Shown here one piece after another: positions 3,580 through 33,560 of a stretch of DNA of 36,551 bases. Both the position numbers and the translations under genes were made by a program. The stretch is from a virus. The first letter of the stretch is position 1; the number at the start of each line of letters is the position of its first letter. The notes under the pieces were generated by a model. That model was not told the DNA's origin. It did no database searches and worked only from the letters and a program-made list of their open reading frames with translations. The stretch is from positions 1-36,551 of the IMG/VR virus record IMGVR_UViG_3300025410_000049; one strand, written 5' to 3'.

Positions 3580-3775
3580 AGAAGAAATGATTGAATTGGC
3601 TAAACAAGCAGGATGGGAATATGCACATGGTGATAGTGGATTCGAACCTTTGTGGACATTTGCCAAACTGATAGCAGTTAAAGAACGTGAGGAATGTGCA
3701 AAGATGTGTGATGAATCTGAATATCCTGATGGATCTGATTTGGCTCATTTAATTCGTGCAAGGGGACAAGAATGA
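3572..3775 (+). CDS. Small phage protein, EREECAK-type (67 aa)
   Basis: The protein starts MTKEEMIELAKQAGW and carries WTFAKLIAVKEREECAKMCDE followed by LIRARGQE, written here in pieces. This order (helix with AxxAG, then FAxL, EREECAKxC, then IRARG) is a recurrent module in phage accessory proteins, often found in the same genomes as EWVGLT proteins. Function unknown. The only possible ligands visible are the two Cys of CAKMC. Start: GGGGG then TGGTATG, overlapping the preceding mini-gene. The stop overlaps the next ATG as ATGA. Confidence 0.7.
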   Translation: MTKEEMIELAKQAGWEYAHGDSGFEPLWTFAKLIAVKEREECAKMCDESEYPDGSDLAHLIRARGQE

Positions 3776-4026
3776 AGTTTAGAAAAAAGCCTGTGGTGAT
3801 TGATGCCACACAATGGTTCAAGATGGGCGACCATCCTGCTGTTGAAGAATCTTTGGCAAATGCTCAGTTTGGGTGGATTGATACCTTAGAAGGTGGTCAT
3901 ATCGTCAGTTCAGGCGACTGGATCATCACTGGCGTGAAGGGTGAGCACTACCCATGCAAACCTGACATCTTTGAGGCAACTTACGAACCAGTTGAAGTTG
4001 TATTTGAATATAAAAGCTACCCATAA
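3772..4026 (+). CDS. Conserved small phage protein, PDIFEATYEPV type (84 aa)
   Basis: A compact beta-rich protein starting MKFRKKPVVIDATQW and including DTLEGGHIVSSGDWIITGV, then GEHYPCKPDIFEATYEPV. I recognise this as a widespread phage protein of unknown function, in which a short strand (KPVVIxAxQW) is followed by a GDWI(I/V)xGVKGExYPxKPxIFxxTYE barrel-like region. Family membership is clear; biochemical role is not known. It overlaps the upstream gene by ATGA, and AAGGGGACAAG supplies the ribosome site. The next cistron follows after 9 bases. Confidence 0.75.
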   Translation: MKFRKKPVVIDATQWFKMGDHPAVEESLANAQFGWIDTLEGGHIVSSGDWIITGVKGEHYPCKPDIFEATYEPVEVVFEYKSYP

Positions 4027-4035
4027 GGAACAAGA

Positions 4036-4200
4036 ATGAACGAAGAATATACTTTTTATTCACCGCCCAAGCCAAATATTATTTTTAGACTTGGTAAAGA
4101 TAGCAACATAATTTTTCACAGTCATATACCAAAACCGCCCAATGCTTTTCAAAGATGGATGTTAAGAACATTGCTAGGAATTTATATGGAGTTGATATGA
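4036..4200 (+). CDS. Small phage protein of unknown function (54 aa)
   Basis: The frame runs from an ATG at 4036 (AAGGAACAAGA upstream) to a TGA overlapping the next start as ATGA. The product begins MNEEYTFYSPPKPNIIFRLG and ends FQRWMLRTLLGIYMELI, a hydrophobic basic helix that might touch a membrane. It is missed if only the longer overlapping reading frame from 4155 is considered. That frame's true start is probably 4197. Confidence 0.55.
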   Translation: MNEEYTFYSPPKPNIIFRLGKDSNIIFHSHIPKPPNAFQRWMLRTLLGIYMELI

Positions 4201-4715
4201 CTAGACAGGAAGCTATAAATATACTTTTAGATCACTTTAGTGCAGGATTTGTCCGCACAATAGAGGATGCGCTAAACAAAGAATGGGTAGGGTTGACTAA
4301 TAACGAAGTTTTGTTGCAATACTCAAAAGAGGATGTTGAGTGGCAAAAGCAACAGATGGAACATGCACAACAATTAAACGCAGAAGCACTAAAGCAAGAG
4401 CAAGACGAGCCTGTTGCTTATTTTAGTCCGCAAAAAGGCGGTTTTTACTGGGCAAAGCCAACAACAGTTACCGCACCAGTAACAATTGACGTTGAGCCAT
4501 TGCCTTTTTACACCACACCACAAGGATGTGCTGAATGTGGAAATGGTGGTGGTTATGCGTTGTATTGCGTTGCCTGTGTTGAAAAGTTTTTTGGTAAAGG
4601 TAAAGAATGGGTAGGGTTGACTGATGAGGAAATAAAAGACATTGTTGATTGTGGTAGAACTGATTATGTAAATATTAAGAAAGCGGAACAAAAATTAAAG
4701 GATAAGAACACATGA
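4197..4715 (+). CDS. Composite EWVGLT protein with zinc-ribbon-like CxxC pairs (172 aa)
   Basis: This is the longest member of the mini-gene array and appears to be an assembly of modules. There is a helical start (MTRQEAINILLDHF), a first EWVGLT copy at about residue 29, and a DEPVAYF-KGGFYWAKPT-LPFYTTP segment. A metal-site candidate CAECG then YCVACVE (two CxxC pairs) follows, and then a second EWVGLT copy ending in KLKDKNT. The ATG at 4197 is preferred over 4155 because it overlaps the previous stop (ATGA) and has GGAG upstream. The last codons act as the next gene's ribosome site. Two EWVGLT domains in one frame suggest fusion of neighbours. Function unknown. Confidence 0.7.
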   Translation: MTRQEAINILLDHFSAGFVRTIEDALNKEWVGLTNNEVLLQYSKEDVEWQKQQMEHAQQLNAEALKQEQDEPVAYFSPQKGGFYWAKPTTVTAPVTIDVEPLPFYTTPQGCAECGNGGGYALYCVACVEKFFGKGKEWVGLTDEEIKDIVDCGRTDYVNIKKAEQKLKDKNT

Positions 4716-4921
4716 TTGAATACGACTTTGAGGGATATGCCAAGTCTAAAATTGATAAAGGATTAGGCTATTTGGAAGGTTTTAGTAAAGGCTATCACCA
4801 AGCTAAATCAGAATGGGTAGGTTTAACAAGGTCTGAAGTTTTGGACATAGTAGATAGCACTACCCATCCATTAGAGTTTTACCGAGCTATAGAAGCTAAA
4901 TTAAAGGATAAGAACATATGA
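4712..4921 (+). CDS. EWVGLT mini-gene (69 aa)
   Basis: The product has a unique N-terminal helix (DFEGYAKSKIDKGLGYLEGF), then EWVGLT followed by an RSEVLDIVDS helix and an AIEAKLKDKNI tail. It starts on the ATGA of the upstream gene and ends on that of the next. The EWVGLT part can be aligned with the C-terminal halves of the neighbours, whereas the N-terminus is unrelated, so the gene looks like a variable head on a common C-terminal domain. No enzyme motif. Function unknown. Confidence 0.7.
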   Translation: MIEYDFEGYAKSKIDKGLGYLEGFSKGYHQAKSEWVGLTRSEVLDIVDSTTHPLEFYRAIEAKLKDKNI

Positions 4922-5163
4922 ACGTAGAAATAGAATTTTTAGAATGGGTACACCCAAAAGCAGGAATTACTAAGGTACAGATGGAGGGTGGTAAGCCTTT
5001 AGTACTTAAAGCAAAGATTAAACATGAATGGGTAGGGTTGACGGGTGAGGAAATTAAAGCGTTTGATACTTGGCACGACAACAGGGAAGAAGAAGTTGGT
5101 TGGTGCAATCCATCGGAAATTGTGGCTTACATTGAATCCAAACTCAAGGATAAGAACACATGA
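4918..5163 (+). CDS. EWVGLT mini-gene (81 aa)
   Basis: The N-terminal half (MNVEIEFLEWVHPKAGITKV, then GGKPLVLKAKIK) looks like a small beta sheet. The C-terminal half is EWVGLTGEEIKAF followed by NPSEIVAYIESKLKDKNT. The gene is coupled at both ends by ATGA overlaps. Its N-terminal part differs from all other array members, again consistent with a swapped head and a shared C-terminal domain. Function unknown. Confidence 0.7.
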   Translation: MNVEIEFLEWVHPKAGITKVQMEGGKPLVLKAKIKHEWVGLTGEEIKAFDTWHDNREEEVGWCNPSEIVAYIESKLKDKNT

Positions 5164-5426
5164 AACACGAAAAAACATTTGAAGCAATCAACAAACTTAA
5201 AGATGTAGAGATTGAATTACATCGTTTAAAAAACTTGTTGGAGATAACAGGCAGAGCGTTGGATGCAAAGTCTGAATGGGTAGGGTTGACTGATGAGGAT
5301 TTAGAAAACATTAAACTATTGACATTTGAAAAAGAGATCAATTCCGATGGTGAAGAACAAGAAGCTGTTGATCTCGATCATTTGATGAGAGCCACAGAAC
5401 AATTATGTAAGGAGCGAAACACATGA
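5160..5426 (+). CDS. EWVGLT mini-gene with coiled-coil start (88 aa)
   Basis: Residues 1-38 form a helix with heptad spacing (FEAINKLKDVEIELHRLKNL). EWVGLTDEDLENIKLL follows, then an acidic stretch (NSDGEEQEAVDLDH) and the tail CKERNT. ATGA overlaps occur on both sides. Together with the next two genes it forms a segment that is echoed at 5751-6303 (EWVGLT gene, then an MR-SIKLFE gene, then another mini-gene), suggesting a three-gene duplication. Function unknown. Confidence 0.7.
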   Translation: MKHEKTFEAINKLKDVEIELHRLKNLLEITGRALDAKSEWVGLTDEDLENIKLLTFEKEINSDGEEQEAVDLDHLMRATEQLCKERNT

Positions 5427-5557
5427 GATTTAGTATCAAATTATTTGAATATCGTTATGTTTTAAAAATATTTTTTCCTACAGAGCGCCACATTAAATGG
5501 CTACCTGCGATTATGTGGGGAAAAGTAAAATGTTTAACTAAGGAGCGCAACACATGA
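5423..5557 (+). CDS. Mini-gene MRFSIKLFE, first paralogue (44 aa)
   Basis: A 44-residue basic protein starting MRFSIKLFEYRYVLKIFF and ending KERNT. It is a clear paralogue of the 46-residue product at 6053-6193: both have MR(F/L)SIKLFE-x-RYVLKIF and IKWLP(A/S)I-x-W, with divergence elsewhere. Conservation between the two copies at protein level, despite codon differences, is good evidence that this short frame is translated. Both ends carry ATGA overlaps. The amphipathic, aromatic composition might suit membrane contact, but no function can be assigned. Confidence 0.7.
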   Translation: MRFSIKLFEYRYVLKIFFPTERHIKWLPAIMWGKVKCLTKERNT

Positions 5558-5754
5558 ATAGAAGACTAACACCAACAACACAACTTAGGTGGGTAGACCG
5601 CCATATCACTTATTTGAGTGGTTATGAGTACATACACGCAGATATAGAAGTTCTTGAGCAGTGGCATCAAAACGAAGTGCTGACAGAGACACATGGCTGG
5701 CAACCAGTGGAGGGCGGGGAGTGGAAGGAAATAAAAAAGGAGAAGAACACATGA
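5554..5754 (+). CDS. Mini-gene of unknown function with KKEKNT tail (66 aa)
   Basis: The product starts MNRRLTPTTQLRWVDRHITY and ends GGEWKEIKKEKNT. It has no EWVGLT domain, but its C-terminus has been brought to the common KEKNT ending, which supplies AAAGGAGAAG to the next gene. Parts such as LRWV-x6-LQQW-like (LEQWHQNEV) resemble small phage proteins with a tryptophan-rich C-terminus. Coupled on both sides by ATGA. Confidence 0.65.
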   Translation: MNRRLTPTTQLRWVDRHITYLSGYEYIHADIEVLEQWHQNEVLTETHGWQPVEGGEWKEIKKEKNT

Positions 5755-6056
5755 ATGAAATAAAAAATATGCAAACACCTTGGGATTCAGACAAGATTCT
5801 GATGGTGGATATAGGATGCTATGAGCGTGGATGTGTATGCGTAGCAAACCAGTGGGATGCAAACTATAAAAGCGAGTGCGTACCAATGGTTGAGTATAAA
5901 GAATGGGTAGGGTTAACTAATGAGGAAGTCTATGAAATATACAAAGCTACTGAAAAGCTAGTTGGGGAGCATTGGGATAATGGTGGAACAATTCTGATGT
6001 TTCCTACAACTTTATACCAAGCGTTTGAAGCCAAGTTGAAGGAGCGCAACACATGA
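5751..6056 (+). CDS. EWVGLT mini-gene (101 aa)
   Basis: The start at 5751 is chosen over an in-frame ATG at 5661 because it overlaps the upstream stop (ATGA) and has AAGGAG at the right distance. The longer version would overlap the previous gene by 90 bases. The N-terminal half holds three cysteines (DIGCYERGCVCVANQW), and the C-terminal half is EWVGLTNEEVYEIYKATEKL, then GTILMFPTTLYQAFEAKLKERNT in pieces. That last piece (FPxxLYxAIEAKLKExNT) is the most typical version of the domain. Function unknown. Confidence 0.7.
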   Translation: MNEIKNMQTPWDSDKILMVDIGCYERGCVCVANQWDANYKSECVPMVEYKEWVGLTNEEVYEIYKATEKLVGEHWDNGGTILMFPTTLYQAFEAKLKERNT

Positions 6057-6193
6057 GACTTAGCATAAAACTTTTTGAAACTCGATATGTATTGAAAATT
6101 TTTTTACAAGACGGTAGAAAGATTAAATGGTTGCCATCAATTTGTTGGGCAAAAATTGGTCGTGCCGTAGCCCTAAAGGAGAAGAACACATGA
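6053..6193 (+). CDS. Mini-gene MRLSIKLFE, second paralogue (46 aa)
   Basis: The paralogue of the 44-residue gene at 5423-5557, starting MRLSIKLFETRYVLKIF and carrying RKIKWLPSICWAKIG. It has an insertion before the tail, which is KEKNT. Its position after an EWVGLT gene repeats the arrangement of the first copy. It is expressed through the same tail/ribosome-site/start junction. Function unknown, but the paralogue pair makes it a real gene with good probability. Confidence 0.7.
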   Translation: MRLSIKLFETRYVLKIFLQDGRKIKWLPSICWAKIGRAVALKEKNT

Positions 6194-6303
6194 ATGAAAT
6201 ATTAGATCTTATTTTATTAGTAGGTGTATTGAGCATAGGCGCAATATGGATTACTGCGGTGTTTTGTTTTATCGTGATGGTGATAGGAGGGTTTGATGAC
6301 TGA
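6190..6303 (+). CDS. Single-span membrane mini-protein (37 aa)
   Basis: The frame from the ATGA at 6190 encodes MNEILDLILLVGVLSIGAIW followed by ITAVFCFIVMVIGGFDD. Nearly all of it is hydrophobic, so a single inner-membrane helix (about residues 5-33) is expected. It ends the chain of KEKNT-coupled genes. Its last codons contain GATAGGAGGG, a strong ribosome site for the next gene, which it overlaps by 8 bases. The role is unknown; small phage membrane proteins of this kind can affect host membranes or superinfection. Confidence 0.6.
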   Translation: MNEILDLILLVGVLSIGAIWITAVFCFIVMVIGGFDD

Positions 6304-6604
6304 CGGCGGAAAAGGGTCTAAACAAAGACCAACAGATCATAATAAGTTTGCAAGTAATTTTGATTTAATTTTTAGGAGTAAACCAATGGACGAAGAAACA
6401 AGAGAGTTAGATTTACAACTTGGTGATGCACTAGCAGAACTAAACTTATACAAAGATGCAATTAACGAAGCTAATGTTATATGCCAAGATGTAGATCATG
6501 GGCGATACGGCGATGCGCTTGTGCACGTACAAAAATTTTATGCGAAGGTTGAAGCAATACGTCAATACAAAGCTAAGTACATTGACATGGATGGTAGATG
6601 CTAA
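6296..6604 (+). CDS. GSKQRP-type phage protein with possible internal start (102 aa)
   Basis: The start is the ATG at 6296, behind AGGAGGG. An in-frame TTG one codon earlier is unlikely. The first 30 residues, MTDGGKGSKQRPTD then NFDLIF, match a common stand-alone phage peptide pattern (GGKGSxxRPxDxxxFxxNxDxIF). The remaining 72 residues (MDEETRELDLQLGDALAEL onward) are a separate helical coiled-coil protein. Between them lies TTTAGGAGTAAACCAATGG, so a second ribosome site and ATG at 6386 could make the C-terminal part alone. It may be a fusion of two mini-genes or a gene with two products. Confidence 0.7.
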   Translation: MTDGGKGSKQRPTDHNKFASNFDLIFRSKPMDEETRELDLQLGDALAELNLYKDAINEANVICQDVDHGRYGDALVHVQKFYAKVEAIRQYKAKYIDMDGRC

Positions 6605-6777
6605 TGATAGAAAAGATTAACACGTTTGAGAGTAGGCGTGGCGAAGAGCGAGGTAAGATCCGAACAATACATAGAATAATCTATCGGTGTTCGGATTGTG
6701 GAAAGATGTTTAGCTCTAAAGAAGAAACGGAGACGCACGACCATAAGGACAAAGAAGATGCCAAGACCCAAAAGTGA
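6604..6777 (+). CDS. C2H2 zinc-finger-like mini-protein (57 aa)
   Basis: A short frame starting on the last base of the preceding stop (TAATG). Residues 27-47 read YRCSDCGKMFSSKEETETHDH: Cys29, Cys32, Phe36, then His45 and His47. This is a C-x2-C-x12-H-x-H arrangement close to a classical zinc finger, with a basic N-terminal arm (ESRRGEERGKIRTIHR). A DNA- or RNA-binding role is likely from this composition but not shown. The 3' end overlaps the next gene by 20 bases, and the overlap hides this gene from simple ORF calls. Confidence 0.65.
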   Translation: MIEKINTFESRRGEERGKIRTIHRIIYRCSDCGKMFSSKEETETHDHKDKEDAKTQK

Positions 6778-6952
6778 CATAACAGATGGTGTATATGTAG
6801 GTGTACGAATGACTAAAGAACAACGAGAAATGTTTCAAGACATAGGAGGTGCAGAATGGTTAAGAAATTACCTAAACAGACAGATAAGGTCAGAGGAGAT
6901 TCAACTTGGCCTTTCCCCACAAAACTCCTTACTCAAGAACCAAAAAAAGTAA
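6758..6952 (+). CDS. Small MPRPKSDITD-type phage protein, possible DNA-binding (64 aa)
   Basis: The ATG at 6758 is preferred over an upstream in-frame ATG at 6698 because the product then begins MPRPKSDITD, the usual start of a widespread family of short phage proteins (MPRPKS-x-IT, then a GVR(M/L)T strand and a GG-x-x-WLR helix pair). Those are often labelled transcriptional regulator or ribbon-helix-helix-like. Here GVRMTKEQREMFQDIGGAEW then LRNYLNRQI fits that layout. Binding activity is inferred. It overlaps both neighbours. Confidence 0.7.
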   Translation: MPRPKSDITDGVYVGVRMTKEQREMFQDIGGAEWLRNYLNRQIRSEEIQLGLSPQNSLLKNQKK

Positions 6953-6999
6953 AACGTAAGAAAGTAGATACAACACAATATGAAGGGGCGTTATTTTGA
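6856..6999 (+). CDS. Overlapping mini-gene with perfect ribosome site (47 aa)
   Basis: This frame lies mostly inside the preceding gene in another frame. It is supported by an exact AGGAGGT at 6844-6850, five bases before its ATG, and by a TTGA overlap with the next gene. The product is very basic (MVKKLPKQTDKVRGDSTWPF, then EPKKVKRKKVDTTQ), a likely nucleic-acid-binding peptide. The pattern KLPK-x-D-K-x-RGD-x-TWPFP also reads like a conserved phage peptide, but I cannot name the family. Confidence 0.6.
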   Translation: MVKKLPKQTDKVRGDSTWPFPTKLLTQEPKKVKRKKVDTTQYEGALF

Positions 7000-7226
7000 A
7001 TGCGGATGATAAACAAGTTGGTGGCAACCACTATAAAGAAATGCCAGTGCAACCTTGGACAGTAATGGAAGCAGTGCTTACCCCCGAAGAATTTAGAGGG
7101 TTTTTGAAAGGCAACATCATCAAGTACTCTATGCGTGCAGGGCGCAAAGGTGCAACAGACGAAGATATAAACAAAGCATTTCACTACATTGAGAAACTTA
7201 ATGAACTTAATAACACTAGACTTTGA
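6996..7226 (+). CDS. DUF3310 protein
   Basis: The product contains DKQVGGNHYKEMPVQPWTV and GNIIKYSMRAGRKG, followed by a paired helix DINKAFHYIEKL. This is the DUF3310 signature (VGGxHYK...QPW...F..GN.IKY..R...K) found in many phages and sometimes called a nucleotide-kinase-like protein. Its biochemistry is not established. The start is TTG at 6996, overlapping the previous stop as TTGA; no ATG precedes the conserved region. The 3' end overlaps the DNA polymerase start by 26 bases, so it is part of the replication operon. Confidence 0.87.
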   Translation: MNADDKQVGGNHYKEMPVQPWTVMEAVLTPEEFRGFLKGNIIKYSMRAGRKGATDEDINKAFHYIEKLNELNNTRL

Positions 7227-9033
7227 AACATATTATGAGAAGGCTACGTTTAGCTTAACCAAGCTGACGACCGAGGAGTATGTGCGTGACTCACGTTTTG
7301 AAGTAATTGGCGTAGCAGTCAAAGTAAACAACGAAGAAACTGAATGGGCATCTGGCCCGCGTGAGGAAATACAACAATGGTTAACATCTTTTCCATGGGA
7401 TGATTCAATCTTACTGGCCCATAACACAGCGTTTGATGGTTTTATACTAAGTGAGCGTTTTGGTATTGTGCCTAAAGTCTATGCTGATACGTTATCTATG
7501 GGTAGGGCATTGCATGGCGTTGAAGTAGGTGGCAGTCTAGGTGCGATGGCTGAACGCTATAAACTACAAGCCAAGGGTACAGAGGTTAATGAAGCCAACG
7601 GCAAGTACAGGCAAGACTTTACACCTGAACAACTTAGTAGGTACGGCGACTACTGTATCAATGACGTTGAGATTACCCATGCGCTATTTAGTCGTATGAT
7701 GCACAACGGCTTTCCAAAGAAAGAACTTAAACTTATTGATCTTACTCTACGGATGTTTATTACGCCGAAATTAGAGTTAGACTTGACTCTACTTGAACAG
7801 CACTACGATGAGGTGAGAGACAAGAAGGCTAAGTTGTTACTGGATGCTGACATAACAGACTCGACACAACTTGCGTCTAATCAACAGTTTGCGGATTTAC
7901 TTAGACTCTACGGCGTTAGTCCTCCGACTAAGATAAGCGTAACCACAGGTAAAGAAACTTTAGCATTAGCTAAGAACGATGAGGCGTTTAAAGCTTTAGC
8001 GGAGCATCCCGATATACGAGTGCAGACTTTAGTTGCGGCGAGGCTAGGTACAAAGAGTACACTAGAAGAAACTAGGACAGAACGCTTTATTGGAATTGCC
8101 AAGCGTGGTTTGATGCCAGTGCCCCTGAAATATTATGCGGCGCATACTGGACGTTGGGGTGGCGGTGACAACTTAAACCTACAAAACTTACCAAGCCGAG
8201 GCGAGAACGCAGGGAAGTTAAAGAAGGCTATAAAAGCACCCGAGGGCTATGTCATCATAGACTCTGACTCCTCACAAATTGAGGCGAGAACACTTGCGTG
8301 GCTTGCCGGACAGAACGATTTAGTTGAAGCATTTAGAAAGGGCGAAGATGTATACAAACTTATGGCATCGGCAATCTACGGTAAGAAAGCTGAAGAGATT
8401 ACAAAAGAGGAGCGGTTCGTGGGTAAGACGACTATCCTTGGAGCGGGCTACGGCATGGGGTCGGAGAAATTTAAGAACCAGCTTAAAACTTTTGGTGTTG
8501 AAGTTGAGGCTGAAGAAGCAAAGCGAATTGTGCATACGTACAGAAGTACTTACCCACAAATTGTTTCTATATGGAAACAAGCTCAAGTCGCCTTACAAGC
8601 GTTAGCTAATGGCTCTGTAATACGTTTAGGTAAAGAAGGCGTACTACAACTTGTACCGCTTGAAAAAGCTATACGACTACCAAGCGGACTCTTGATGCGC
8701 TATGACGACTTAAGAGCAACTAGGGATGAAAAAGGTGTTCAATATATGTACAAGACTCGTCGTGGATGGAATAAAATCTATGGCGGTAAAGTAATTGAGA
8801 ATGTCTGCCAAGCTATTGCACGGTGTATCATTGGCGAACAAATGATTCGTATCGCTAAGAAGTATGATGTTGTGCTAACAGTCCATGATGCGATTGCTTG
8901 TCTTGCGAAAGTTGAAGAAGCTGAAGAAGCTAGGAATTATGTCGAGGAGTGTATGCGTTGGACACCCGACTGGGCTGAAGGCTTACCAGTAAATTGTGAA
9001 TCCGGTTTCGGAGAATCTTATGGAGATTGTTAA
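7201..9033 (+). CDS. Family A DNA polymerase with 3'-5' exonuclease domain
   Basis: The phage replicative polymerase (610 aa). The exonuclease domain is intact: Exo I at D7-F-E9, Exo II D79 in LAHNTAFDGF, Exo III Y151-x3-D155. The polymerase domain is also complete: motif A D354 in IIDSDSSQIEARTL, motif B R405...K409...Y417-G418, motif C V561-H562-D563. Length is shorter than T7 gp5 (704 aa) but usual for this phage subgroup. The ATG at 7201 is preferred over an in-frame TTG at 7189 because MNLITLDFET places Exo I correctly near the N-terminus. No 5'-3' exonuclease domain is present. The gene is followed by a Cas4-like nuclease at a TAATG overlap. Confidence 0.97.
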   Translation: MNLITLDFETYYEKATFSLTKLTTEEYVRDSRFEVIGVAVKVNNEETEWASGPREEIQQWLTSFPWDDSILLAHNTAFDGFILSERFGIVPKVYADTLSMGRALHGVEVGGSLGAMAERYKLQAKGTEVNEANGKYRQDFTPEQLSRYGDYCINDVEITHALFSRMMHNGFPKKELKLIDLTLRMFITPKLELDLTLLEQHYDEVRDKKAKLLLDADITDSTQLASNQQFADLLRLYGVSPPTKISVTTGKETLALAKNDEAFKALAEHPDIRVQTLVAARLGTKSTLEETRTERFIGIAKRGLMPVPLKYYAAHTGRWGGGDNLNLQNLPSRGENAGKLKKAIKAPEGYVIIDSDSSQIEARTLAWLAGQNDLVEAFRKGEDVYKLMASAIYGKKAEEITKEERFVGKTTILGAGYGMGSEKFKNQLKTFGVEVEAEEAKRIVHTYRSTYPQIVSIWKQAQVALQALANGSVIRLGKEGVLQLVPLEKAIRLPSGLLMRYDDLRATRDEKGVQYMYKTRRGWNKIYGGKVIENVCQAIARCIIGEQMIRIAKKYDVVLTVHDAIACLAKVEEAEEARNYVEECMRWTPDWAEGLPVNCESGFGESYGDC

Positions 9034-33014: not shown

Positions 33015-33560
33015 TTATCTAAACCTCGGTCCTGATAACCACATAGTTGAAGAATACCTTACACCTTTTGTGACTGGCGTAACTCTGTGTTCTAGCACAG
33101 AAGGAAATGCAATAAGCGAACCTTTTTTAAGTTCTGGTGTAAATTCACCATAAAGACGAATTTGTAATTCGCCCCCTTCAAACTCGCTAGGGTCATTCAT
33201 TAAACAAATAACCGTAATTTTTCGATCTGTAGGCGCACCCGACAAAGGGAAATTATCAACGTGCCAATTGTATTTTTGATTGATACCGTACTCTGCAAAT
33301 TGCACAGCTTCATGGTCATTAACTTCCCAACCCCAACTACAATCCACGTTTGCCAAAAGCGCATATTTATACATCATATGCCCAAACCAATTTTCTTTAT
33401 CAGAAAATCTAATAGTTGTATTGCGTTGAGAGTGGTCTACGTTATCTGACTTGATACCCATAGTAGCGTTTCTTGTTGGTAAAAGCATGTACTCTGCAAA
33501 TGCCTTATCGCAATCCTCAATAGATGCTTGACCTAAATACCAAATGGGTAAATGCGACAT
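33015..33560 (-). CDS. 2OG-Fe(II) dioxygenase, prolyl-4-hydroxylase-like
   Basis: A 181-residue enzyme with the whole facial triad: H100-x-D102 in NWHVDNF and distal H158 in VLEHRVTP. R168 in GVRYSSTMW binds 2-oxoglutarate. The surrounding SEFEGGELQI and KGSLIAFPS strands are typical of the phage/cyanophage PKHD group. The enzyme would hydroxylate a protein or small substrate with O2 and 2-oxoglutarate; targets could be the collagen-like tail fibre nearby (GPT repeats), but this is speculation. Short gap to the small tail gene upstream (33564) and 1 base before the next gene. Confidence 0.9.
   Translation of the reverse strand: MSHLPIWYLGQASIEDCDKAFAEYMLLPTRNATMGIKSDNVDHSQRNTTIRFSDKENWFGHMMYKYALLANVDCSWGWEVNDHEAVQFAEYGINQKYNWHVDNFPLSGAPTDRKITVICLMNDPSEFEGGELQIRLYGEFTPELKKGSLIAFPSVLEHRVTPVTKGVRYSSTMWLSGPRFR

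Follow-up and report, generated by a model that had tools for sequence, protein, structure and literature searches.

How phages gain and lose small accessory genes without breaking operon expression is a long-standing question, and it is raised by the DNA described here. The window, that is, the whole stretch that was analysed (36,551 nucleotides of a virus, IMG/VR record IMGVR_UViG_3300025410_000049), contains a chain of eight consecutive small genes in which, according to the first-pass annotation, one 18-base junction serves at once as protein end, ribosome site and next start codon. That annotation took the junction for a plug-and-play element through which new reading frames are inserted into the chain. 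The question is whether the junction itself enables insertion or is the end that one type of gene brings with it. The chain is composed as follows (window positions).

4155..4715, + strand: gene 1 (start at 4155 or 4197); EWVGLT at 4281 and 4605; tail KDKNT; from the ORF and motif scan
4698..4715, + strand: junction 1, AAGGATAAGAACACATGA, 0 mismatches
4712..4921, + strand: gene 2, 69 aa; EWVGLT at 4811; tail KDKNI; predicted C-terminal two-helix hairpin
4904..4921, + strand: junction 2, AAGGATAAGAACATATGA, 0 mismatches
4918..5163, + strand: gene 3, 81 aa; EWVGLT at 5026; tail KDKNT
5146..5163, + strand: junction 3, AAGGATAAGAACACATGA, 0 mismatches
5160..5426, + strand: gene 4, 88 aa; EWVGLT at 5274; tail KERNT
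5409..5426, + strand: junction 4, AAGGAGCGAAACACATGA, 0 mismatches
5423..5557, + strand: gene 5, 44 aa; without EWVGLT; tail KERNT; paralogue of gene 8
5540..5557, + strand: junction 5, AAGGAGCGCAACACATGA, 0 mismatches
5554..5754, + strand: gene 6, 66 aa; without EWVGLT; tail KEKNT
5737..5754, + strand: junction 6, AAGGAGAAGAACACATGA, 0 mismatches
5751..6056, + strand: gene 7, 101 aa; EWVGLT at 5901; tail KERNT
6039..6056, + strand: junction 7, AAGGAGCGCAACACATGA, 0 mismatches
6053..6193, + strand: gene 8, 46 aa; without EWVGLT; tail KEKNT; paralogue of gene 5
6176..6193, + strand: junction 8, AAGGAGAAGAACACATGA, 0 mismatches
6190..6303, + strand: post-chain gene, 37-aa hydrophobic protein; start in junction 8

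The shared 18-base tail at eight consecutive junctions was readily recovered. A scan of the window with AAGGANNNNAACAYATGA returned sites without mismatch at 4698, 4904, 5146, 5409, 5540, 5737, 6039 and 6176, and the remaining 8 of the 16 matches listed have three mismatches each, where chance would give 7.6 at up to three mismatches. The exact sequence AAGGANNNNAACACATGA occurs in the record seven times in the forward and 0 times in the reverse direction, and the reversed-pattern control gave 0. The consensus AAGGA-N4-AACA(C/T)ATGA fits all eight junctions (4698-6193); the spacing of five bases originally given was wrong, as it makes 19 bases and finds four of the eight sites, with two mismatches each. 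At 8/8 junctions the tail reads as K-(D/E)-(K/R)-N-(T/I) plus stop with a Shine-Dalgarno (SD) match inside, just as had been claimed, and the stop TGA and the next ATG have four nucleotides in common, ATGA. Twelve four-base overlaps are found between called + strand genes in the window, and exactly eight of these, all consecutive, are of the junction type. In loci chosen solely by their DNA polymerase, 17 of 209 SD-bearing ATGA overlaps are of this type (5 of the 17 from L261 and L262, close kin of the window); at that rate eight out of eight would have a probability of about 2e-9, a figure that assumes independent junctions, which is untrue given the paralogy. The window's eight form the longest junction run among the 276 sequences examined, followed by the five of L261, a fragment that is identical to the window over their overlap.

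Genes 5, 6 and 8 (starting at 5423, 5554 and 6053) do have the tail without EWVGLT, as stated at the outset; the companion statement that the N-termini are mostly unrelated needs correction for genes 5 and 8, which are paralogues with 82% DNA identity over 67 nt starting at the junction. Searches of PHROGs and Pfam placed none of the chain's eight genes in a family (E < 0.01). The post-chain gene has its own end, GGFDD, with a junction of another type, and a weak match to phrog_19354 (E 0.0012). No terminator-like site was found on the + strand in 3900-7250, and the predicted accessibility of the eight start sites (0.42-0.89, against 0.43-0.79 with shuffled flanks) is ordinary. Parts of the chain are matched elsewhere: L021 matches gene 3 over 4906-5021, from the junction to just short of EWVGLT; L093 matches gene 4 over 5274-5426, from EWVGLT through the junction; L008 matches 5540-5744, from junction 5 across gene 6 into junction 6; and L040 matches gene 5 from junction to junction (5408-5559), although the L040 copy is closed by a TAA overlapping the start of its junction.

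In most cases the junction forms the 3′ end of a small two-helix domain at the C-terminus, which runs from W-x-G-L-T to EAKLKEKNT. In the prediction for gene 2, the block mean pLDDT values are 98, 98 and 95 (residues 41-69), with helices at 40-49 and 53-67. Among the matches listed, which include loci chosen for the junction in the initial scan, K(D/E)(K/R)NT ends 106 of the 118 junction sites that have an upstream ORF. An exact W.GLT is present in 69 of these 106 genes and absent from 37, and a loose W-x-G-L-T is present in 84; in the other 22 not even the loose motif is seen. Of these 22, 17 have an ORF that is not cut by a contig end, and 14 are also without an EAKL-like stretch ahead of the tail. 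EAKL itself precedes the tail in only 48/106. A 112-row alignment was built from the query together with 111 of the 153 segments listed; since all of these had been required to show W-x-(G/D)-L-(T/S) and to end in (K/R)(D/E)xN, the conservation at its ends is in part a product of the selection. The KEKNT junction outnumbers every other tail type in our samples, some of whose loci were selected for it. It is widespread among contigs of uncultured phages and seldom met in bacteria: in 257 Gb of bacterial and archaeal genomes, the 18-mer AAGGAGAAGAACACATGA turned up in 59 stretches, and only two of these (L218, L244) have the KLKEKNT end. A fold search of the domain against the PDB gave no credible match (best E 4.7); against BFVD (best E 0.017), every hit from rank 1 to rank 45 is an uncharacterised protein from an uncultured Caudovirales phage. 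The 56-aa EWVGLT segment has six matches at E up to 10 among 50,697 named-phage records, none significant (best E 0.6); one of the six, Phage DSL-LC04 (Dishui Lake), has the exact junction before a gene shared with L037.

A search for EAKLKEKN in any codons found at least 138 sites in at least 118 contigs. Among the matches listed, the first K of KEK is AAG at 130 of 138 sites (background 40%), the E is GAG at 116 (background 39%) and the second K is AAG at 105 (background 40%). An ATG is at most a few bases away at 123 sites; duplicates and sites with fewer than 15 upstream codons were left out of this count (1 of 139 in a slightly wider set was so short). Upstream of the SD, synonymous positions are conserved as well, with GAA at 135 and GCC at 117 of the 138 sites listed. 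GCC, outside the SD, is conserved as strongly as the SD codons, and coupling gives no explanation for this. Because the codons are biased towards a strong SD while the residues are fixed as K-(D/E)-(K/R)-N-T, constraint seems to act at both levels; from its codons and residues, the tail looks constrained both as DNA and as protein. The first-pass annotation had held that selection or recombination acts on the junction and not on the protein tail. This is right in so far as unlike genes, including the 22 without the motif, carry the tail, but the contrast is too sharp, since the third tail codon (mostly AAG, also CGC) encodes K or R in 106/118 and the residues therefore seem to matter.

To which gene the start signal belongs can be seen where the downstream gene is held fixed. 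For a first downstream gene, 48 loci with 23 upstream clusters have a four-base overlap, with an SD-like four-base motif in the tail in 41/48; for a second, 35 overlaps come from nine upstream clusters, with such a motif in 35/35. These sets used 79/80 and 39/46 loci (one and two had fewer than 120 bases upstream, and the second set was taken without its last five partial matches), and 70 and 39 were kept for clustering after exclusion of rows without an upstream cluster. In pairs whose upstream genes differ and which have no junction, mean identity is 0.41 and 0.47 over the ten bases that precede the start, and 0.89 and 0.98 over the ten that begin with it. The junction type follows the upstream gene and not the gene placed after it; on these sequence comparisons, the tail is a property of the upstream gene.

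Different mini-genes should be found around the same junction in other phages if the junction joins interchangeable genes, and this is what we observed: of the 27 downstream families that stand behind the junction in two contigs or more, 20 follow two or more different upstream genes. Alignment of the breakpoints agrees with exchange at this place. Where the upstream gene is kept and the downstream gene changed, at 88% identity or more, 12 of 15 pairs end their similarity within -18 to +3 of the stop, that is, inside the junction or at most three bases off (at least one member of each pair has the junction, and the pairs are drawn from 22 contigs and hence are not independent). Where the downstream gene is kept and the upstream gene changed, two of six pairs break inside the 18 bases, three within 25 bases further and one beyond. 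L262 is 98.1% identical to the window from 5734 onward and unrelated over its 538 upstream bases (junction 6); the 3′ half of its junction differs too, so the crossover is not placeable inside the junction. In L014/L331, L187/L020 and L009/L187, for example, closely related upstream genes have different tails and successors, and the break lies within the junction. The claimed gain or loss of a cassette between junction copies is borne out by one clear filled/empty pair: in L109, two junction copies enclose a gene of 78 aa, hydrophobic at its N-terminus and ending in ESKLKEKNT, and L140 has one junction at that place, both flanks being homologous and 76-88% identical, as befits related contigs, not near-identical phages.

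The plug-and-play proposal thus stands as far as neighbours are exchanged at the seam, but the view that this element is what enables insertion is not supported: swapped and kept neighbours number 21 and 17 at the junction versus 76 and 54 at other ATGA overlaps (Fisher p = 0.85), and families with several upstream genes are 20/27 versus 88/138 (p = 0.38). The swap ratio at the junction does exceed that at other borders (p = 0.011), a class that takes in conserved structural and replication genes. Pairs whose downstream genes are 70-90% identical have kept the upstream gene in 1/28 cases when both have the junction, in 26/105 when both have another ATGA overlap and in 1048/2279 when both have other borders; the corresponding figures are 6/11, 29/62 and 258/311 at 90-99.9% identity, and 7/39, 55/167 and 1306/2590 over the range of 70-99.9% (junction versus other ATGA, p = 0.08). 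This later neighbour test used gene calls with the EWVGLT domain stripped. A raw-ORF test with downstream genes 90-99.5% identical found the same upstream gene in 10/13 junction pairs versus 21/45 others, the opposite of a hotspot, with a shared EWVGLT domain counted as the same upstream gene. Because pairs are not independent in the exchange tests, the p values are only a guide.

The best overall explanation is probably that a dual-use domain end supplies the next gene's ribosome site and that genes are exchanged at the ATGA seam. The junction would be the 3′ end of a recurring mini-domain (W-x-G-L-T, helix, loop and a helix ending in EAKLKEKNT) whose last codons are kept as SD plus four-base overlap, so that each gene's tail would hold the successor's ribosome site. 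Termination-reinitiation is known at ATGA overlaps, and by analogy ribosomes ending one gene may start again on the following gene or be recruited there. A frame starting at the seam would be translated immediately because its start signal sits in the preceding gene's tail and, if it ends in such a tail itself, would hand the signal on. Exchange of neighbours would take place at the seam: two genes with the junction tail would offer 18 to about 40 bases of common DNA to recombination, whereas other tails have hardly more than ATGA in common and yet appear to be exchanged. Since exchange also occurs between other tails, the rule would be that the upstream tail brings the start site and the seam is ATGA; the KEKNT junction would be the tail type most often met in these samples rather than a dedicated insertion element, and mini-genes are apparently exchangeable whole without breaking the chain. 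As for the recombination pathway that may be used, no annealing-type recombinase was recognised among the early ORFs searched, several of which match nothing, but only a PD-(D/E)XK exonuclease. It is possible, though doubtful, that modularity itself has been selected, the mobile C-terminal mini-domain being a connector that provides, in its coding end, both ribosome site and start for the gene behind it, so that any frame ending in it would join the coupled early operon; such a connector might spread between unrelated genes and phages since gene gain becomes immediately expressible.

Plain descent, in which one family is defined by the C-terminal domain, its tail was duplicated and inherited, domain-less genes are remnants and recombination is nothing special, would fit the frequency of the motif (69/106 exact, 84/106 loose, with EAKL kept in 48/106), the tandem paralogy of genes 5 and 8 and the synonymous conservation of GAA-GCC, which points to common DNA ancestry. 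It seems unlikely in view of the 22 genes without even the loose motif, 14 of them also without the EAKL-like stretch, of pairs such as L014/L331, in which closely related upstream genes have different tails and successors, and of untranslated junction copies that stand as plain leaders in L015, L027, L031 and L085. We regard as quite unlikely a convergence on a good start, in which AAGGAG, a short A-rich spacer and AACACATGA are favoured and K-E-x-N-T is their ATGA-frame reading: AACAC indeed stands just before the ATG in 42 of 766 non-junction SD-bearing ATGA overlaps versus 1.6 expected, and is found in other tails and untranslated leaders, but in two non-overlap classes it occurs at 14 and 15 starts and the junction core at 10 in each (partly from loci chosen for the junction), the free codon 3 is not random and GAAGCC falls outside any start site.

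Exchangeable genes flanked by identical or near-identical copies might also suggest that the 18-base junction is a dedicated insertion site, recognised by a phage recombinase, or a cassette-inserting hotspot, and ends of DNA similarity are indeed 12-fold enriched within 15 bases of it (33 versus 2.7 at random places). This reading is nevertheless highly improbable, as other SD-bearing ATGA overlaps show a near-equal excess (182 versus 22.1, 8-fold) and an equal swap ratio, and among 196 pairwise records of gene-sized indels only 2 fall on the junction. On the same comparison, the junction was rejected as a special recombination hotspot. With each gene's start signal in the tail of its neighbour, one tail type shared by many genes and recent exchanges readable base by base, the docking rule is directly testable, and the recurring tail offers a handle for spotting exchangeable accessory genes in uncultured phages.

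No description of a reused KEKNT/ATGA gene end was found in the literature covered, mostly outside subscription journals. Unlike an integron-like cassette system, the junction shows no concentration of exchange relative to other ATGA overlaps (p = 0.85), although it lies above other borders (p = 0.011). A chain of interlinked genes in the lambda nin region was reportedly described by Kroger and Hobom in 1982. The accessible text on this region describes tightly packed early genes with ATGA stop/start overlaps (PMC8022706), and the window likewise has consecutive small genes joined in this way; that text mentions ATGA motifs but no common 18-base end coding a shared protein tail, and the chain's genes, without a PHROGs or Pfam family, show no homology to lambdoid nin genes in these searches. 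Coupling at the same kind of overlap was strict in 13 of 14 tested pairs in H. volcanii and E. coli, with no claim, in the available part of that report, of one sequence reused over unrelated genes (PMC6728339).

The SAS of cluster K mycobacteriophages, a 13-bp sequence (GGGATAGGAGCCC) with an SD core and extension, is similarly a repeat: according to the accessible sections of its description, it stands, within one phage group, directly ahead of the start in genes from different families (PMC3203893). Most of these genes lie over 50 bp away from the gene upstream, a few copies include the upstream stop codon, and those sections do not describe it as a common protein tail (PMC3203893); GGGATAGGAGCCC is found in 0/8 junctions, all of which overlap by 4 nt. 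Lambdoid phages, as far as the available excerpts go, have short conserved boundary sequences where modules meet, which can serve homologous recombination (PMC3029335, PMC2327257), whereas the junction is a gene's coding end plus ribosome site, repeated within a single genome. In the accessible account of Island3 and Brujita (cluster I mycobacteriophages), presented as the first such mycobacteriophage case, some of a set of otherwise near-identical phages have, and others lack, a small homologue-less gene whose last 18 residues (about 60 bp of DNA) are shared with the preceding gene, and recombination at the shared 3′ ends was proposed (PMC3029335). The layout of L109/L140 is the same, an extra gene that repeats the preceding gene's 3′ end being present or absent; the junction differs in being one sequence over many genes and contigs that also holds the SD and the next start. 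We judge the chain to be a large-scale variant of these known phage linkers, the lambda nin chains and the shared 3′ ends of Island3 and Brujita.

The gene calls place twelve four-base gene overlaps on the + strand of the window, a virus record of 36,551 bases, and a pattern scan showed that eight consecutive ones fit AAGGA-N4-AACA(C/T)ATGA without a mismatch. This bears out the first-pass annotation, which had described eight consecutive genes sharing one tail that is at once a protein end, a Shine-Dalgarno (SD) site and the next start codon; the junction sequence stands, and its reported five-base spacing was a miscount for N4. The five-residue tails of these chain genes read K-(D/E)-(K/R)-N-(T/I) and, as had been claimed, they extend to members without the EWVGLT motif, namely three of the eight. 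Among the 276 sequences of the comparison set (120, 73 and 82 loci plus the window) there is no second run of eight junctions, and the next-longest run, of five, lies in a fragment of the same phage.

Junctions and EWVGLT codons in the window
4715, 4921, 5163, 5426, 5557, 5754, 6056 and 6193, + strand: junction ends, by pattern match
4281, 4605, 4811, 5026, 5274 and 5901: EWVGLT codons (GAATGGGTAGGGTTGAC), repeated nearly letter for letter

None of the eight chain genes matched a PHROGs or Pfam family with an E-value below 0.01. Residues 8-44 of the gene at 4155-4715 give a very weak match to Tad8, a Thoeris inhibitor (E 0.029; 14.6 bits vs a cut-off of 27), which is probably due to chance and, if true, would hint at an anti-defence role for chain genes. 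Elsewhere in the window, 33015-33560 (minus strand) matches a 2OG-Fe(II) oxygenase family (phrog_61, E 3e-32), and 7041-7226, directly upstream of the polymerase gene, encodes a DUF3310 protein (E 2e-13); DNA around 6997-7147 in this stretch recurs in many polymerase-selected relatives.

C-terminal segments were aligned in 112 rows, the query plus 111 out of 153 listed segments, each pre-selected to carry the motif and to end in K/R-D/E-x-N. The W, the L and the final N do not vary in it, and the G, the T and the E..LKEK positions are almost invariant. For gene 2 of the chain (69 aa) with this 112-row alignment, AlphaFold2 predicts a confident C-terminal helical hairpin (helices 40-49 and 53-67; block mean pLDDT 98, 98 and 95), residues 1-30 scoring low (53-57). 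The predicted fold has no credible match in the PDB, and the proteins that match it best among viral structures come from uncultured phages and are uncharacterised.

In IMG/VR, AAGGANNNNAACACATGA occurs in at least 120 stretches and at least 140 sites. Among the 140 sites listed, 74 have GAAG and 12 have GCGC as N4; an upstream ORF is present at 118 sites and absent at 22. The tail is K(D/E)(K/R)NT in 106 of these 118 ORFs, followed in 103 of the 106 by an ORF of 25 aa or more; W.GLT is found upstream exactly in 69, exactly or as a loose variant in 84, and in neither form in 22, of which 17 have an ORF uncut by a contig end. In bacterial and archaeal genomes totalling 257 Gb, the 18-mer AAGGAGAAGAACACATGA was found in 59 stretches; two (L218 and L244) have KLKEKNT ends, and of these L218 has the W-x-G-L-(T/S) motif. 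In 80 loci picked by DNA polymerase alone, 17 of 209 SD-bearing ATGA overlaps, spread over 13 loci, are of the junction type, and two loci closely related to the window account for five of the 17.

In a search for EAKLKEKN in any codons, 118 contigs supplied 138 usable sites among the matches listed. AAG, GAG and AAG, the codons that form the SD, stand at 130, 116 and 105 of these (background in the same frames upstream: 40, 39 and 40%), and an ATG lies within a few bases downstream at 123 of the 138, irrespective of the protein end (T* in 71, NG* in 11, A* in 6, HG* in 5, and others). Because these codons are biased and an ATG lies close by whatever the protein end, the tail DNA looks constrained as a start site. 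At 106 of the 118 junction sites listed, the free third tail codon encodes K or R, and on sequence grounds the tail residues seem to be constrained as well as the DNA. Separately, the Ala codon before the SD in EAKLKEKN is GCC at 117 of 138 sites (vs 24% background and 30% after GAA), a bias at a fourfold degenerate codon outside the SD for which we offer no explanation; the Leu codon two codons further on is spread over six codons (CTC in 54 of 138). AACAC directly 5' of the ATG is also strongly enriched where genes with other tails overlap their successors at ATGA (42 of 766 vs 1.6 expected, 276 sequences).

When one downstream gene was held fixed in loci not selected for the junction (best 80 of at least 600; 79 usable), eight loci had the junction; the 48 rows with a four-base overlap and an upstream cluster represented 23 clusters, and 41 rows had an SD-like four-base motif within the upstream tail. 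A second fixed gene (39 of 46 loci usable, six with the junction) gave 35 overlaps, nine upstream clusters and an SD-like motif in 35 of 35. In pairs from these two sets with different upstream genes and the junction in neither member, mean DNA identity was 0.24-0.47 per ten-base bin 5' of the start, single bases varying (two positions of the second set reach as high as 0.95), and 0.89 and 0.98 over the first ten bases from the start; where both members have the junction, similarity reaches some 20 to 40 bases upstream. Low identity upstream and high identity from the start argue that the start signal comes with the upstream gene, and that the universal seam is the four-base overlap. The junction is untranslated, or nearly so, in contig L085, after an EWQGLT gene ending EAKLREKNSL, and in L031, behind a tail of a different type (IKARGQA); in L015, L027 and L040 it stands as a plain leader. 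The KEKNT junction has a counterpart in a second tail that recurs, ...IRARGQE/RGQA/RGK (AGGGGACAAG[AC]ATGA and variants), which plays this part for a different C-terminal motif (EREECAK...AIRARG); the two stand in tandem in L031.

Sites of the second tail type (IRARGQE/RGQA/RGK)
3755-3775: in the window
1540 and 1707: in L008
At the junction: in L031
Before a fixed downstream gene: in L355 and L382

Different mini-genes do surround the same junction, as had been anticipated: at called gene boundaries, 20 of the 27 downstream families found behind it in two or more contigs have at least two upstream gene clusters (other ATGA overlaps, 88 of 138; other borders, 209 of 307). Breakpoints were located in pairs at ≥88% DNA identity with one neighbour kept. 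With the upstream gene kept and the next gene different, 12 of the 15 pairs in which one or both members have the junction (non-independent pairs covering 22 contigs) lose similarity between -18 and +3 of the stop, as do 21 of 32 pairs with another ATGA overlap and 15 of the remaining 41. With the downstream gene kept, the counts are 2 of 6, 32 of 44 and 43 of 74, the junction pairs tending to break further upstream (-34 to -44), past the shared EAKL codons. L262, a close relative with a 100% identical polymerase protein, is 98.1% identical to the window from 5734 onward and unrelated upstream of it. L008 shares gene 6 and L040 gene 5 with the window from junction to junction, among other pieces, and a 78-aa gene fills a site in L109 whose counterpart in L140 is empty. 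As the pieces shared by L093 (gene 4) and L021 (gene 3) are bounded by a junction on one edge and the EWVGLT codons on the other, these codons, where similarity ends 14 times vs 3.2 expected, may be a second exchange seam inside genes.

The junction had been proposed as a cassette element. Exchange there is supported, and a special role in it is counted against by swapped-to-kept ratios of 21/17 at junctions vs 76/54 at other ATGA overlaps (other borders, 115/231) and by the 2 of 196 pairwise gene-sized indel records that junctions hold. We favour tail-borne start sites combined with exchange at ATGA seams, in which the upstream tail would bring the start site, and neighbouring genes could be coupled by termination-reinitiation, as reported for such overlaps elsewhere (PMC6728339). 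RecET reportedly promotes recombination between sequences of 5-13 bp (PMC2327257), which would make the 18-base junction and shorter seams alike possible substrates. Genes for a PD-(D/E)XK exonuclease and for helicases are present in the window, and no annealing protein was recognised among the early ORFs searched. Selection acting alone, on random breaks that by chance preserve the reading frame and the start site, would look no different from targeted exchange in these data.

In the portions of the literature available to us, we found no description of one gene end serving many genes as protein tail, ribosome site, start codon and exchange seam. The component parts are already known, the nearest precedents in those portions being the shared 3' ends of Island3/Brujita (PMC3029335), the ATGA chains of the nin region (PMC8022706), SAS (PMC3203893) and the lambdoid boundary sequences (PMC3029335, PMC2327257).
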